A stretch of DNA of 64,000 bases from the NCBI GenBank assembly GCA_004369085.1, contig ML210160.1, forward strand, positions 78,989 through 142,988, in the 5' to 3' direction. The notes beneath the pieces were generated by a model that was given only the letters and a program-made list of their open reading frames with translations, did not search any database and had not been told where the DNA came from. This stretch comes from Coprinopsis marcescibilis (lineage: Eukaryota; Basidiomycota; Agaricomycetes; Agaricales; Psathyrellaceae). Numbering within the stretch: the first letter of the stretch is position 1; every line of letters starts with the position of its first letter. Shown piece by piece: positions 51,497-60,345 of this stretch. Made by a program: the position numbers and the translations under genes.

Positions 51497-52950
51497 TCAT
51501 CCCCAGCCTCACATTGGAGGGACAAGTCCCGAGTCTGCAACATGCGCACAATGTACAGACATCGAGAATGGAAGAATGGCAGGACCATGTTGATGAGTAT
51601 CACTGCTCAACAATAACAATCTCCGCGCTACTAATCACAATTTACCCATACATAGTGTCATAGACCTTGGGAACAAACACATGGTGGAAACGTGTTGATA
51701 TTTCTCAACAGGCTGAGTAGTCTGTGCCGTCGAGGCATGACTTTTGTGCCATTACCCACTACCACCTGCCAGTTACATTGTTCTGTTCTTTCCCGTCTCC
51801 AACCAACTCTTTCGCTCCGGCTATGGACAGGGCAGCTGAAGCTCACGACGCCCAAGGACGTCATGGTAAGACTTTACACTCTTAAACCTATATTACCACC
51901 TCAACAGTTGCGCCGGCGCAGCCTGGGCCATGGACGATGACGATGGTGGGATTACCGTCGAGCCTCGTGTAAAGGCAGCGCCCAAGGCCGAGAATGCAAG
52001 GGAGCACTGCGCCGGTTGCTACTGCGCGAAAGAGCCCCCTAAGCTCGAGATTGTCATCGATATCTGTGGCACTCATCATAAGAACGGCCGCAATCTCATC
52101 ATCTGCATCGATGGCACTGCCAACCAGTTTGGCGACCAGGTATGAGAGCTTGAAATCGTAACGTTCCATTTCACTGATCCTAAGTTGCCTCTAGAACACA
52201 AATGTCATCGAGTTATACAACCTACTTCTGAAGGGGCCCAAAGACTGACAGCTCACCTGGTACAACAGCGGGATGGGCACATATGCTGAGCCACATTGGA
52301 GGTCGTTGGAGTACTGGCTTCAAGTCCTCTATCACAAGATAGATCTTGCCATCGCTTGGTACGTGTTGTGTTCCTGTTGTACTTTCCCGCTCGCATTCGA
52401 AGACTTCTTTGGTTAGGAACTTTGAAACTTTGACAAAACCATACTAGCAGCCTATTGATGGCTGGCTGACAAGTACAAAGAAGGAGACCATATCTTTTTG
52501 TTTGGTGAGTCGATTCAATGGCCGGTGAACTCTAGAGGACTCCCTTGCCCATTATTGACATGGCAACAGGTTTCTCGAGAGGAGCCTTTCAAGTTCGTGC
52601 TCTTTCCGCTATGATCGACAAGGTTGGACTTCATCCAATGCATAAATTTTCGGTGTATTTATCTTTTCTTCAACCAGGTTGGCCTTATCTACGAAGGAAA
52701 CGAAGTGCAAATTCCGTTGTGCGTAGAACTGACCTCCGATCGCGTTGACAGTGGCTCACAATAAACATTTGCAGTGCATACCAGCTCTACGCTCGATCTG
52801 GATCCGGTAACACCGAGGCCCAGCCAGTCAGGGTCACTGGCACGGCGAGCAAGCCCGTGCGAGTCTCAAAGACTGAAAGGTTCAAGAAGGCATTCTCGCG
52901 TGACGTCAAGGTTCATTTTGTTGGAGCGTGGTAAGCTGTACATGTAATGT
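51490..52950 (+). repeat. segmental duplication, copy 2
   Basis: Direct-orientation copy of 46970-48404 with promoter, start codon region and exons 1-7 of the DUF2235 gene. The copy stops at the transposon at 52951 and resumes at 60142. Confidence 0.75.
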
Positions 52951-53041
52951 CTTGTCTCGTACCCATCCATTTTCGGTCAGTGGCGTGTGGTATTTTAGTG
53001 CCGCAGGCACTTAGCCACCCCTAGAACGTCTGGTGCATTTG
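52951..53041 (+). repeat. left terminal inverted repeat
   Basis: Begins CTTGTCTCGTACCCATCC; inner match agaacgtctggtgca. Pairs with 60051-60141. Confidence 0.8.
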
Positions 53042-53665
53042 GCGACCTGATCCATACATTGTGTCACATGTCACGTCACAGCCACCCAGCTGCCCTTGGA
53101 AGGTGGCTGGCCTGGGCCTCCTTGTACCTACTAGGGGCAGTGGGCCACCGCATTTGCGTGGCAGTATGAGGGTTTACTGTTGTAAATCTTAACAGCAGAC
53201 TCCGATTACTACTATTACTAGCCTACATACCTTCCATACTCTTCGCGGTGTTGGGATCAAGAGGTAGCAGATTCTCCGATCCTGCAAATACTTCCCACAC
53301 AAACAGTGCCCGCCTTGATGGCCCATGTACCACGGCATCAGTCGGCTTGGGCATTTTGCGGACATTTGTCAGCCACAGCAACGAGACGGCACCATCCAGC
53401 AAGAGCAGGGGAAATCGTAGAGAATCATCGCTAAATCGTAGCTAATCACAAATTTTAACTTGAGAAAAAGCCTCTGTCAGTGTACACTAAGGGTATTCCA
53501 TCTGGTTCAAGTTGGCTGCCAGTGTAACGCCTATGAGAGTTGGCATGGGAACCGGCAGGCGGAGCTTTAAACCCCTGATGGACTCATGTGGTACACGACT
53601 GGGGGGGGTTGATCAGGATTGGTCGGACTGTGCCCCCTTGCCCAGGCCCTAGCAGACCGGAGCAT

Positions 53666-53801
53666 GGGACCACAGACACACGTGGCATTACAGTGTAGAG
53701 CTCAGAATCTTGGCAAAAAGGTTGCTCAAGATCCTAGGGGAATGAGCCTGGGAACGTAGACACATGACATCACAGTGGAGAGCTCAGAATCTTGGCAACA
53801 A
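53666..53801 (+). repeat. subterminal direct repeat of the element
   Basis: Two copies of about 52 bp, 53666-53719 and 53750-53801, sharing gagctcagaatcttggca. Subterminal repeats of this kind often bind transposase; that role here is inference. Confidence 0.65.
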
Positions 53802-54298
53802 AATTGGCGGGCGGCATTGGGAATAAGAATGCTGCTTTACTTCGTAAACCCTCGTAACATCTATATAGCTTTAACCTGGTTTGCACACCTTGGACATCTG
53901 TAGGTCATGGTACAATCTGTTAGAGTAAAAAATAGAACCTTTATTGAATGAGAATACCAAAATCGGGACATTATTCAGCCATGGAATCTGCCTGTCTCAA
54001 TTTTAATCCACTGCAAGACACCCTGTTTCATTGCAGAAAGCTACTTCACACTATACAGCTGTTGAACTTAGAACGATCGACTACACTTATGTCAGATACG
54101 TGACTAAGTGAATATGCTCATGTCATATACATGACTAAAAGTATTACAAACCATGACACATTCACTTCGCGTCATTATTACTCATACCAACTCATACCTG
54201 AGTCTAGACTATGCTGGAACATTCTAGCAAAGTCTATTTATATATTTACTTATCACATGTAGCATGTAACCTGTTTACTAATATGCTTGTAGAATAGG

Positions 54299-54306
54299 TA
54301 TATAAG
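54299..54306 (+). promoter_or_regulatory. TATA box of the DUF6589 gene
   Basis: TATATAAG, 176 nt upstream of the ATG at 54482. Moderate match; the leader length is plausible. Confidence 0.4.
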
Positions 54307-54481
54307 GGCTGTAGTTTAGCCCTATACAAAATATCTCTCTTGCCTCTTAACTACCACCTGCTAAGCTATAAGCAACTCTAACTACCTCATACTACAAGGT
54401 AAATATGTCCTACCCAGTCGTATACATTGGCCTCCTGCTTGCCTGCGCATTTGCTGCACTCTCTGGCTTTCAAAAACAGCT

Positions 54482-57284
54482 ATGGCCACTATTACCAACC
54501 ACTTCTCTGCTATCCAAAATACCACCTTTGCCTCTGAATTCACAGACGATGAAGGCTCAACAGCATCGTCTGAGTCAGCCTCCGACATTTCAGACATGGA
54601 AGGCTTCATCTCAGCAGCTAGCAATCCAGCCAAGTCTGGCAGCAACGAGGAACCCATCAACAACATATTCCACAGAACAACCGCATCCAAGAGAACCCAC
54701 CTTACAGAACAGAGCAAGTTTGAAGCAGTCCATGACACTTGCAAATTTCTTGAGTCCTGCAGAATCAGGGATATTGGAATGCTGGCAAAAACCTCCCTGC
54801 GCTTCTTTGTCAATGAAGCGGCCAGCAGGGGCAGCCAAGGTGATGAAGACGCTTGCTGTCAACACTGTCAGCAACATGATTCACAAGGAGCTCAAAACCC
54901 TCGGGCCTCTCTTGTGACTCCCTTCCGGCAACGACACCAATACTGCAAATCTGATGGAACTATCAATTGATGATATGAAGATGATGATGAAGCAGAAAGG
55001 CCCCGTGCTATGGAGGTTCCTCAAACATTCATTGACAACAAAGGGGCAGAAAAAGCGGAACACTGTAAAGGATCCTTCCAAGGTGAGCTGCCAACCACTA
55101 GCATACATCAACAATTCAAGCTTACCTGTCTACGCAGACAATCTTTACCATCATCTCAATGATGGTATACTCACAGTCCCACCACCACAACCGTCTCCAG
55201 AAACTCCTTGCAATCTACCTCAAGTTCCGCGGAATATCAGCTAAGGGGTTCAATACACTCCATAGTATGGGACTCACCATGAGTCACAAATGGGCATGCA
55301 ACATAGTGGAATCAATGTCAAGGCAGGCTGGCGAAGAAATGCTGAAGAAAATGGAAGAATTCATGTGGGTTTCCTCATACAACAACGTTAACATACCTTT
55401 CCGGGTCTTCTCTCAATGTCTTGACAACCAAAGGGAGCTAGGGACCGGCACTGCAGCAACCATATACATCAAACGTGATGCACCCAAGCTCTCGGATACA
55501 TTAAACCAATTGCTGAAGGAACAGCAGGCATGCGGAATAAAGAACCCACTCACCGAAGCGGACATCCTCAACCTTGATTCCAAGGACTACCCAAAGGTGC
55601 ATGCACAAATGAAACATGCCGTACTCCAGATTCTCCTTGACAGCCCCGAGTTCGAATTATCCACCTATTTAGAAAGGACATCAGACAAGCTCAAGTCACC
55701 CCTACCCATCAATCCACTTCCTGTTGGGCATGAGCATGCAACCCTCCAGTATCTTCTTGGGACAGTTGATATCCCTGAGGCCAGCTATGAGGATCACAGC
55801 CGGCTCCTTACAGCCTGGTTTGAACAGCTTGGCTTCAAGACCACTGCAGAGAAGATCCAGTTAGCAATAAAGAATATTATCACATGGATAGGCAACCAAC
55901 TCACTGTCAACTGCCTCCGCCACCTGTTCACTTTCCGTGCCAATGACGACAACTCATTCGACTGCTTGGACTTCTTGGTCTTCATTTTCGGATGGCTGCA
56001 TCTTCAAATGGCTTTTGCCAAATCCCTACATGCACAATACCTTGGAACCAGCAAAGGTCAGGGATTAGGGCAGGCATTTGAACTGTTAAACAAGAAAGGC
56101 CTGTTCTCAACAAAGACACAAGGGCCATTCCACCATGATCTTGAGGAGGTCATCTACCACATTGCCATTGCGCATATCTGAGAAGACTGGCTCCATATCG
56201 CACAGGTTGAAACCCTTGACAAGCTTCAAGACTGACCAGCATCCAAGCTGAAAGCACTTGCATCCAACCTTGTCAAGAAATATGCTTCAAGTGATGCACT
56301 TGAAAACAATCCCACTGTTCAACCAGATCAGCAACGGCGGCAAGTGACGATGTGGAACTGGGATGCACTTCAATATATTGTACTTGATCAGGCGATCAAA
56401 ACTGGTGATGTTGGTCTTATGGAGGCAATGCTGCCATCCCTTCTCTTCCAATTTCTTGGAGGTGGGAATGGCAAGTATGCGGTTGAGGTCCTTGAGTTGC
56501 TCCAAGGGCTCCATCGCGAATGGCCTGATGAACTGGCATAAGCAACCTTGTCAAAATGAGGGGATTGAATATTTACCCAATGATTAGCACCTTTGTATGC
56601 CAACATTGTTGGCTGGTTAACTCAACAGGGGCCCCTGGGAAATGGTGTCCCATTGACAAGGCACAGGAGATGAATATCAAAGACATCAAAGTAATGTACT
56701 GTTCTGAAGGGCCCAACATCAAGTGGGCCTACCTCAAAAAACTCCACCCAGCCATACCAACGATCAGGACAGTTATCGATTTCATGGAATGCCAATTTGG
56801 TACTTTAACACAAGGGAAAAAGCATTTGGTACCAAGTGTGGAGAAAGACATTGAAAAGCTGCGGAAGAGTTATGCAAGTTCAAAGATTCATGAGGAGCAA
56901 CCTGGACATACCATTCATGTAAAAGCAGACTGAGCAAAGGATGTGGTGACCAAAGGTGCTCAAAAGCTCCAAAACGGTCAAGTACTGGCCAAATGGCATG
57001 ATAACCATGCATTTGAAAGGTCGTTGGAAGAGGATTGGGCTGAATCGGAGGATGAAGATGCTGACAAGGAGAGAGGTGTTGACATGGCAGATGGATCCAA
57101 ACGAGGAGAGGGCAATGGAAGCAATGGAGCAATGGTGGCCGAAAATGGTGATAGCGATGACAGCACCAGGATAGACAAAAACAGCGATAACAATGACAGC
57201 ACCAGCAGCAAGGCCACCTCTGAAGCTAGTGTTCCAGATGAGGCTGATGAGGATGCGGCAGAAGCAGCATTCTGGTTGCTTTGA
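54482..57284 (+). pseudogene. decayed DUF6589 gene (putative transposase of the element)
   Basis: The frame begins at ATG 54482 with an acidic N-terminus, shifts frame near 54830 (MKTLAVNTVSNMIHKEL is in another frame), and uses an intron at 55083-55137 to reach MMVYSQSHHHNRLQKLL. The DUF6589 core is clear: KFRGISAKGFNTLHSMGL, YNNVNIPFRVFSQCLDNQ, QYLLGTVDIPEASYED, WIGNQLTVNCLRHLF, FGWLHLQMAFAKSLHAQYL, GPFHHDLEE. The frame is then stopped at 56179-56181, again near 56233, at 56539-56541 and at 56931-56933, while family likeness continues (VLDQAIKTGDVGLMEAML, GGGNGKYAVEVLELLQG, CQHCWLVNSTG). The C-terminus is acidic. Intact family members are about 900-1100 aa; this copy cannot make one. Confidence 0.85.
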
Positions 57285-57680
57285 TTAGGCTTCTTTCGCA
57301 GTCGAGGTCGTGGCCAAGGCCATGCTTCCTGAGGTTGAGATGGAGGCAGGGATGGCAAGTGTGGTGGAAGCATATTTTCTTTGCCTGCTATAGGGTTCAT
57401 GGTGATTTTAGCAACCTTTCATTTGCAAACAGAAGGTGTCTGCTGGCCCATATGCATGCTGGCCATGTTGAGTTGGAACGAGAGATAGTAGTTTGTCAGT
57501 ACTTAGTATATAAGCATATATCACACATACCGAATGAGAAAATGTTGGTGTTGGCATGGGTGTGAGATATGCAAATGGTGACAATGAATGCAACGATGAA
57601 GCTACAGCTGGTGTTACCGAGAAAATGTTCTGCATGTGAAGGGGGGTATCCCCAGGCTCAATCTGCAAAAGGTGATTCAA

Positions 57681-59910
57681 TCATTCAGCAGCCTTCAGAA
57701 TATCTTGCTGCTTTTTCTGCTCCTCCACCAGTATACTTGCTTCCTGGGCAGCCTCCCTCCGTTCCTGGCATAGCAATTCTTTCTCAAGCTGCTCCCGAGC
57801 CTGCTTGGCATCAGCCGCAAGCTTCTTCTGCCGCTGCTTCTCAATTTTGCGAGCTTTGAATTCCTTGTCAACACCCATCACGATTGCCAACACATCCTCA
57901 AAATGCCGCTGGCCAAGAATCCAGCGTGCATTCACCTTCTTTTCCAATGCTATCAATGACCGAATTTCAAGATTCGAAGCCAGAGAGGTGAGAAAGCGAT
58001 CAGGGGCAATAGCTTCAGAGGTGAATGAACTGGGCGAGTAATGTGTCATCTTGAGTTGTGTTTGCCAGGTTTGGAGAGCTGACCGAACTGCCTTGATGTG
58101 TTCGCCATATCATCAAGAGGGATCCTTGCGCAGCGTTATGACAGGTTGTAAAGGTGAGGCGAGTGGAAGCATTGGACGCTTTCCATGCTTGTTGGGGCTT
58201 TGAGAAGGCATAGACTGTGCACTAGTTGGTTGCAACTGTTGGTCAGGTGTTTGTGGCCATGTCAACACCAGGGTTTCCACATCTGTGGGCCAGTCCATGG
58301 GCATAAGAGGTCGCTGCTCAGGCAGTTCCAGGCAGTTGTCACAGCAGGCATACAATGAACCTGAAGCAGAAAAGGGAGAATTGGTCAAAATGAAATATAC
58401 AGTGATGCGTGAGCAATGTACCTGTCAGTCATGGTGGGTTTGCAAAGTGCTCATCCACAATGTCACGTCGACACTCTCACATTTCAATCCATGCTTGCAA
58501 TGCCTCTTCAACCTTCTTGACCCACTCCATCTTGCCATCCAACACTTCAGGCAGGTTGTCGTCTTCACTGTCTGACTCCAATGAACTGTTGTCGTCGGTG
58601 GCACCCTTCTTCCGCCTCTTCTGTTGCTGAAACCCAGACTTCTCCACCAGGAGAATAGCCCAAGCACAGGTGTGGGGTGAACGCCCTGCCCTGCCTGCCC
58701 GTTGAATCCAGACTGAGAGAGAGCTTGGAACTCCCAGCTGAATTACTTGTTGAATTTCAGGGATATCAGCACCCTGTTAACCTGGTTAGGACCCATGAAA
58801 CAATGGAAAGAACAAATGGACTCACCATGCCAGCAGCTTCGGTTGCGACTAGTACCATTGTATCCCCTGTTTTGAGATTCCGCATTACCTGCTTCTTCAC
58901 ACGACATGTACGTTGTGCATGGAGAACGTCAACAAACTTCCGGAGATGAAGAGAAAGCTTTGACTTGATGTAACAGGCGCACTTCTGGGCATCAGCAATC
59001 GAATTGATGAAGACTATTGTCTTGTGCAAAACCTGTTTGATGATTGGGAGTGTGCCGTCGCAAGTGAGAAGTGGGATAAGCGCCTCAAAATCACGGCCTG
59101 ACTTGACTGTTTGTGTTGACATCATAATATTTGGGCAGTCATTTCCAAGGTTGAGGAAGAAGGCATCACTGATGTCGAAGTTGAGGCTGCGCTGGATGTT
59201 TTGAAGAACAGAGGGTGACATGGTGGCGGATGTGATGAGGAATGGGACATGGCTTGGGAAGAAAACACGAAGTTTGTCAAGCTGCGGGTATTCCTTCCGA
59301 AAATTGCCACCCCACTGTGAAATGCAATGTGCTTTGTCAATTACAACCATCGCAACCTGCTCTGAAACAACTGCATCACTGAGAAACTCCCGAAATTGAG
59401 GGTGCGTGAGGCACATCTCGGGCAAAGTGAGTATGGCACTGTATGCACCAGCCTTGAGCTCCTGCAAAAGCTTGTTAGGTGTAACACGGAAATCTTGTCA
59501 AGAAAGCTTACCTTTTCGAGTCTGGGACACCAAGTATCCCCATTCACTGCTGCTGCAGTTATTCCCATGGCCCTGAACCGTGCAACCTGGTCGAGCTGCA
59601 AGACCTTGAGAGGCGAGATGATGACAGCTTTCTTGCTGCTATCATTGAGCAATGGCATCATGAAAGGCATTGTTTTCCCACATCCTGTCCCTGCAATGAC
59701 TACAGAGTCCAGTCCCACCAGCAACGCCTCCGTCACATCCATCTGCCAGTCATATGGCGGCTTTTCGAACCAAGCCTCGAATACTTGCTGAATCCTTGCT
59801 CGAGTTGCAGCTGAATCGAAGTTACTGGACTTCTCTGCAGTTCTACAGGCAGTGTAGAGGTTCTCATAGCTTTGCGCTTTTGAGCGCTCATGAGATTTGC
59901 AGGATGTCAT
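57681..59910 (-). pseudogene. decayed RecQ-like ATP-dependent DNA helicase
   Basis: Minus strand from ATG 59910. Motifs in order: AGTGCGKT (Walker A, about 59672-59695), SPLKVLQLDQ (Ia), IDKAHCISQWGG (motif II, about 59327-59340, reading DKAH instead of DEAH), LITSATMS (III), VFINSIADAQK (IV), then across an intron AAGMGADIPEIQQVIQLG and VWIQRAGRAGR (VI, about 58682-58704). A family-like ECRRDIVDEHF box follows a TGA at 58477-58479, and CCDNC of the RecQ zinc-binding region lies near 58340. A charged coiled-coil tail (KARKIEKQRQKKLAADAKQ) ends at 57681. The Glu-to-Lys change in motif II would abolish ATP hydrolysis, and the TGA truncates the protein. It runs convergent with the DUF6589 gene inside the same TIRs, so it travelled with the element. 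Confidence 0.82.
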
Positions 59911-60050
59911 GAGAAAACAATGTTTATTCAAGGAGGTAGGGAGTGGAGTAGAACAGGAAACCAATCAACAAGGCCCAAGGGCGCGTTGTCGCAGTCACCT
60001 GTCACGCTCACGTGTTGAGGTGGCTGTGTCTATGTAGGGACCCTCTATGA

Positions 60051-60141
60051 CAACTGCACCAGACATTCTGGACAAGGTAAGCACATCAAAAGCAATCTCC
60101 CACAGAGTACCTCTACCCAAAACGGATGGGTACGAGACAAG
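60051..60141 (-). repeat. right terminal inverted repeat
   Basis: Inverse complement of 52951-53041. Ends ggatgggtacgagacaag at 60141. Confidence 0.8.
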
Positions 60142-60345
60142 TAATATCCATCTGTATCAATGTTTTCATTGTGTTCCAATACCGCTAGGGACACCGTCTC
60201 ATCCATCAGGACCACACATGGAAAACACACGCTTCCTGGAACCACCAAGGGTATGCAGCACATGTGCTACTTTCGCCATGCACTGGCGTTGGATGAGCGG
60301 AGGGTCAAGTTCCTTCCTGAATATGCATGGGGTGTCGCAAATTTC

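Follow-up and report, generated by a model that had tools for sequence, protein, structure and literature searches.

Within the 64,000 nucleotides of the Coprinopsis marcescibilis genome analysed here (the window), positions 52952–60140 hold a 7189-bp element with two convergent genes, one encoding a DUF6589 protein (forward strand) and the other a RecQ-type helicase (reverse strand). We read this element, with a probability of about 0.8, as a defective copy of a cut-and-paste transposon, with DUF6589 as its transposase and the helicase as partner, that is AcademH-like and whose family represents a variant duplicating 8 bp of target. An initial annotation of the stretch had described a two-gene element bounded by terminal inverted repeats (TIRs), and this observation is confirmed by the data below.

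Element ends, target site duplications and sister copies

The borders of the element were set by TIRs and target site duplication (TSD) jointly, which gives ends reading TTGTCTCGTACCC... and an 8-bp TSD with 7/8 positions matching (GTAATGTC on the left, GTAATATC on the right). The end repeats (52951–52977 and 60115–60141) are 27 nt long and 93% complementary, and a second inverted block of 19 nt (89%) lies further inside, in register with the outer one. Inverted repeats of about 91 nt had been proposed; matching ends do exist, but they consist of two blocks, the outer one about 26 nt long and the inner one 19 nt, and over 91 nt only 49 positions match, the stretch between the two blocks being unmatched. 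The terminal motif of the family is of the TTGTCTCG type, with TTG ends. The insertion site is an intron of a Tle1-like gene (PF09994), which is interrupted, as had been suggested, with host exons on both sides of the element: the left one stops at ...VHFVGAW, the right one restarts at DTVSS..., and, when spliced at the sites that we propose, these exons together match PF09994 (E 8.5e-15).

The whole genome (36.3 Mb, 448 contigs, with the window on C15, 306,531 bases) was searched for further copies. A 2942-bp sister at C282:16016–18957, on a contig of 30,213 bases, has the same ends as the window element and a perfect 8-bp TSD (8/8). Its aligned blocks are 93–99% identical to the window copy, with 124 transitions and 15 transversions across 2843 aligned bases, and an internal deletion of about 3.2 kb covers the 3' part of the DUF6589 gene and most of the helicase gene. 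The left end found in both copies recurs as a lone end at C218:9030. A search with the end pattern gave 42 matches, many of them necessarily due to chance, and the backward control gave 20.

DUF6589 matches are present at ten loci of the genome (C15, C282, C140, C272, C336, C205, C155, C407, C174 and C323). At C140 (5544 bp) and C272 (5830 bp) the match belongs to an element with both genes, CAG... ends and a perfect 9-bp TSD, and searches with element ends revealed additional CAG-ended insertions at C105 (1202 bp, 9/9), C436 (160 bp, 9/9), C427 (1035 bp, 8/9) and C65 (9/9, where the ends only were read). Counting copies by TIRs and TSDs, as the initial annotation had proposed, thus gives eight insertions with a readable duplication, the C282 sister at its other site among them: two have TSDs of 8 bp and TTG ends, six have TSDs of 9 bp and CAG ends, all perfect except that of C427. 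In 42 cross-element flank comparisons among the seven elements other than C65, the match is 62.5% or less. At C336 a TIR-like pair was found but no clean TSD, while the scans yielded no usable pair at C205 and C155, and at C174 the best matches fall within a palindrome; these scans covered the loci other than C407 and C323. No convincing partner end was found for the single ends at C89 and C289, the single ends examined being those other than C99. The 160-bp derivative (C436:10511–10670, L087) has C140-type ends besides its perfect 9-bp TSD, so DUF6589 elements seem to give rise to miniature inverted-repeat transposable elements (MITEs).

DUF6589 as a predicted DDE transposase and its helicase partner

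Matches to PF20231 (DUF6589) fall in two open reading frames (ORFs) of the element (E 9.8e-47 and 6e-23). The family, listed as a "family of unknown function", is found in many mushroom species among the matches listed. Two DUF6589 models that are 22% identical both match the DDE transposases Hermes (4d1q) and P element (6p5a) first; in such fold listings, families without a row are not thereby excluded, and the best viral fold match, a hAT-domain protein of a pandoravirus (E 0.043), is too weak for use. The DUF6589 alignments show an almost invariant triad of D, D and E, A1 holding 95 of 120 rows from the first homologue list (the best 120 of 192) and A3 76 of 120 from the second (the best 120 of 296). 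An RNase H-like fold and three acidic residues, by prediction and alignment, thus stand beside TIRs and TSDs at eight insertions, the general hallmarks of DDE cut-and-paste elements. Both checks suggested in the initial annotation, acidic residues and predicted structure, came out in favour of its view that DUF6589 proteins are transposases, and the prediction of a DDE-type transposase is well supported, as is its partnership with the helicase. Searches for DUF6589 relatives gave 17 pattern matches in viral contigs and 37 in contigs of prokaryote genomes, none of which was confirmed.

The window copy itself is, by its sequence, a dead and defective fossil, since stop codons lie inside its DUF6589 frame and two of the three predicted catalytic residues are lost. 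P0241, very probably its protein, is the sole exception in its alignment at both aspartate positions, while the C282 sister protein (P0247) keeps both aspartates and is missing the third position.

The helicase gene matches DEAD and Helicase_C. Among solved structures it is nearest to RecQ, WRN and BLM, and in NCBIfam to RecQ models, with scores below the NCBIfam cut-offs. The RecQ zinc-binding, RQC and HRDC domains were not found in six helicase homologues at E up to 0.01, and a CCHC zinc knuckle lies near the C terminus in three of these six, above the Pfam cut-off in one. The list of helicase homologues shows the best 120 of 306 matches, and its 92 best rows (P0121–P0212) were classed by score as element-type. 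When the tree is rooted with a single RecQ homologue, 91 of these 92 rows and six helicases from the DUF6589 loci of this genome form one clade, set apart from six other RecQ homologues and one host match with a support of 0.942; the tree is built from rows with at least 120 of 209 columns, which leaves out, among others, C282, C407, P0210 and P0219 as well as another host match.

Local searches with helicase profiles built from five of the paired loci place a helicase beside DUF6589 at 8 of the 10 loci: C15, C282, C140, C272, C205, C336, C155 (i-E 4e-27) and C407 (N-terminal piece 1.1e-8, core 0.011). The partnership claimed in the initial annotation therefore holds at most DUF6589 loci, but not at all of them, as no helicase was found in C174:1–9000 or C323:1500–12800. 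Pairwise tblastn with the C140 and window queries only also finds the helicase at C282, C140, C272, C205, C336 and C15, weakly at C155, and does not detect the one at C407. Seven pairs are convergent and the C336 pair is divergent. In the reverse direction, two helicase cores searched against the genome gave listings of eight places each; when pooled, these are C140, C272, C15, C336, C205, C155 and C282, all of them DUF6589 loci, plus C357 and C93. The N-terminal piece of the helicase weakly matches C126, C166 and C43 as well. The C357 match (C357:3839–4051) is an element-type helicase piece, on a contig for which no DUF6589 match is listed.

The partnership extends to other mushrooms. Among species-named records (77 DUF6589 and 85 helicase rows), 16 of the 77 DUF6589 rows share a contig with a helicase row, as judged by agreement of species and contig size; one of these pairs is that of C. 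marcescibilis itself. No contig-size match linked different species, and 39 of the 77 rows come from species in the helicase list. Eight of the 16 pairs lie on contigs under 50 kb, co-occurrence on contigs of several Mb being weak evidence, and in three pairs the gene numbers are at most 3 apart (e.g. NP233_g9638 and NP233_g9639). Within the genome, the protein distances of DUF6589 and helicase correlate across six loci (r 0.69, reached by 17 of 720 permutations), driven mainly by the C140–C272 pair, which is 38% identical in both proteins; the remaining pairs are 20–24% identical in DUF6589 and 18–31% in the helicase. Across the 16 same-contig pairs r is 0.85 (0 of 20,000 permutations), a value that species history alone could give. 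Judging from this divergence the pair is old, because both proteins differ by about 70–80% between most families (62% for C140–C272) and yet remain together.

Proposed mechanism and relation to known lineages

We propose that a long helical insertion interrupts the RNase H-like DDE domain of the DUF6589 transposase, much as it does in the enzymes of hAT and P elements. Once bound to the TIRs, the transposase would excise the element and connect its ends to a target cut with a stagger of 8 bp in the window family or 9 bp in the sister families, and repair of the staggered joint would then create the TSD. The RecQ-type helicase, as the conserved second gene, likely unwinds DNA at the cut ends or at the gapped target, which would enable repair of the join. 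In this picture the sequences themselves document the TIRs and TSDs, the copies at separate sites, the internally deleted and short derivatives, the gene pairing and the triad, and the fold comes from prediction, whereas catalysis, the cut-and-paste mode, the function of the helicase and an Academ affiliation are inferences.

AcademH is reportedly a helicase-bearing lineage of Academ DNA transposons published by Kojima in 2020 (Mob DNA 11:15). Its TSDs are 9 or 10 bp and those of AcademX 3 or 4 bp, a difference linked to the encoded helicase and nuclease (PMC10045372); PMC10799480 names AcademH, KolobokH and Helitron as helicase sources and reports AcademH at low copy in Basidiomycota, Ascomycota and Mucoromycota. 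The absence of a standard lineage for such elements, as the initial annotation had it, is not supported, since a helicase-bearing one with 9–10 bp TSDs is already described in these articles; its interpretation is thus partly supported, with the mechanism upheld. The elements studied here resemble AcademH as fungal DNA transposons of few copies with a DEAD/Helicase_C helicase beside the transposase and with 9-bp TSDs in six sister insertions. The comparison with the published description was made on two features, the length of the TSD and the presence of a helicase, and the sister families agree with AcademH in both. By contrast, the window family differs in its 8-bp TSDs (C15 7/8, C282 8/8) and, because it misses this length, we report it as AcademH-like and not as a member.

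Several points would favour a reading in which these elements, with their hAT/P-like DDE fold and RecQ helicase, constitute a transposase superfamily of their own: the 8-bp TSDs of the window family, a likeness to AcademH that was assessed on helicase and TSD length, and the absence of any paper naming DUF6589 from the one open-access library searched. We nevertheless regard such a superfamily outside Academ as unlikely, as the six sister insertions have 9-bp TSDs and, of the helicase-bearing fungal transposons named in PMC10799480 (AcademH, KolobokH and Helitron), it is AcademH that has the matching 9–10 bp TSD. A bolder form of this idea, also improbable but worth stating, is that DUF6589, together with short RecQ helicases forming a clade of their own, makes up a separate two-gene DDE superfamily, with a hAT/P-like fold, a co-evolved helicase and a stagger shifting between 8 and 9 bp, AcademH being either convergent with this superfamily or just one part of it. 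Membership in the hAT or P-element families was itself rejected for lack of a Pfam domain: nine ORFs of the window and seven homologues gave no match to the hAT dimerisation domain or to P-element domains at E up to 1. These enzymes do provide the closest solved folds, with a DDE domain carrying a helical insertion, and their 8-bp TSD has the length of that in the window family; in contrast, the sister TSDs are 9 bp, and we know of no helicase gene in hAT and P-element families.

Other explanations fare worse than an AcademH-like transposon. Kolobok inserts at TTAA, whereas the eight TSDs here are 8–9 bp long and none is TTAA, and KolobokH identity was rejected as highly implausible, although KolobokH, too, is a fungal DDE transposon with a RecQ helicase, reported from fungi only (PMC9587614). 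We give almost no credence to ordinary host genes lying between chance inverted repeats. Taken alone, the window copy would allow such a reading, given its broken frames and the one mismatch in its TSD, but the C282 sister with a perfect TSD at another site, the further sister elements, the helicase beside DUF6589 at 8 of 10 loci and the interrupted intron all contradict it; chance repeats were rejected on the existence of sister copies. Helitrons are fungal transposons with a helicase as well, but they have neither TIRs nor TSDs and carry a PIF1-type helicase, while TIRs, TSDs and a RecQ-type helicase are found here; with TIRs and TSDs present, this identity was rejected.

If PF20231 were annotated as a DDE transposase, its triad named and a helicase given as its partner, such genes could be removed from host gene counts, and the part played by the helicase in transposition could be put to the test. 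Staggers of both 8 and 9 bp within a single gene pair would also offer a natural comparison for the determinants of TSD length.

Features of the window copy and additional insertions

The coordinates are collected in Table 1. The cargo had been described as exactly two convergent genes; these are present, but the element also holds about 725 bp of nested repeated DNA. This segment is evidently a later insertion into the window element, because it is missing from the C282 sister and recurs elsewhere in the genome. Of 14 genome matches to the query 52951–53250, 11 have their start within this segment or on its left border (query position 176 or later). It has TA on both sides and weak end similarity (C-AGGG), and is perhaps a TA-inserting MITE.

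Table 1. Features of the DUF6589–helicase element and its insertion site (window positions)
Feature	Position	Strand	Remark
Host intron of PF09994 Tle1-like gene	52931..60188	+	about 61 nt without the element
Left TSD GTAATGTC	52944..52951		7/8 versus right copy
Left TIR, outer block	52952..52977	+	same end at C282:16016 and C218:9030
Left inner inverted block	53023..53041	+	in register with right end
Nested repeated DNA	53131..53856		TA at both edges; foreign to original element
DUF6589 gene, stretch with homology	55096..57026	+	predicted DDE transposase; stop codons; two of three predicted catalytic residues replaced
RecQ-type helicase gene	57681..59964	-	helicase core 58766–59964
Right inner inverted block	60051..60069	-	pairs with left inner block
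Right TIR, outer block	60115..60140	-	pairs with left outer block
Right TSD GTAATATC	60141..60148		7/8 versus left copy

At C174:1773–3652 (L010, L030), two inverted DUF6589 copies form the palindrome mentioned above, near the contig start. The C140 element lies within a second inverted repeat (C140:31256 and 39175; L070, L071; 19/20 matches), as if it had inserted into a second TIR element. Besides, two C. marcescibilis proteins, P0001 (98% identity to its counterpart in the C140 pair) and P0121 (93%), share a contig of 82,480 bases, that of C140 being 62,835; they represent either a second copy or a different assembly.
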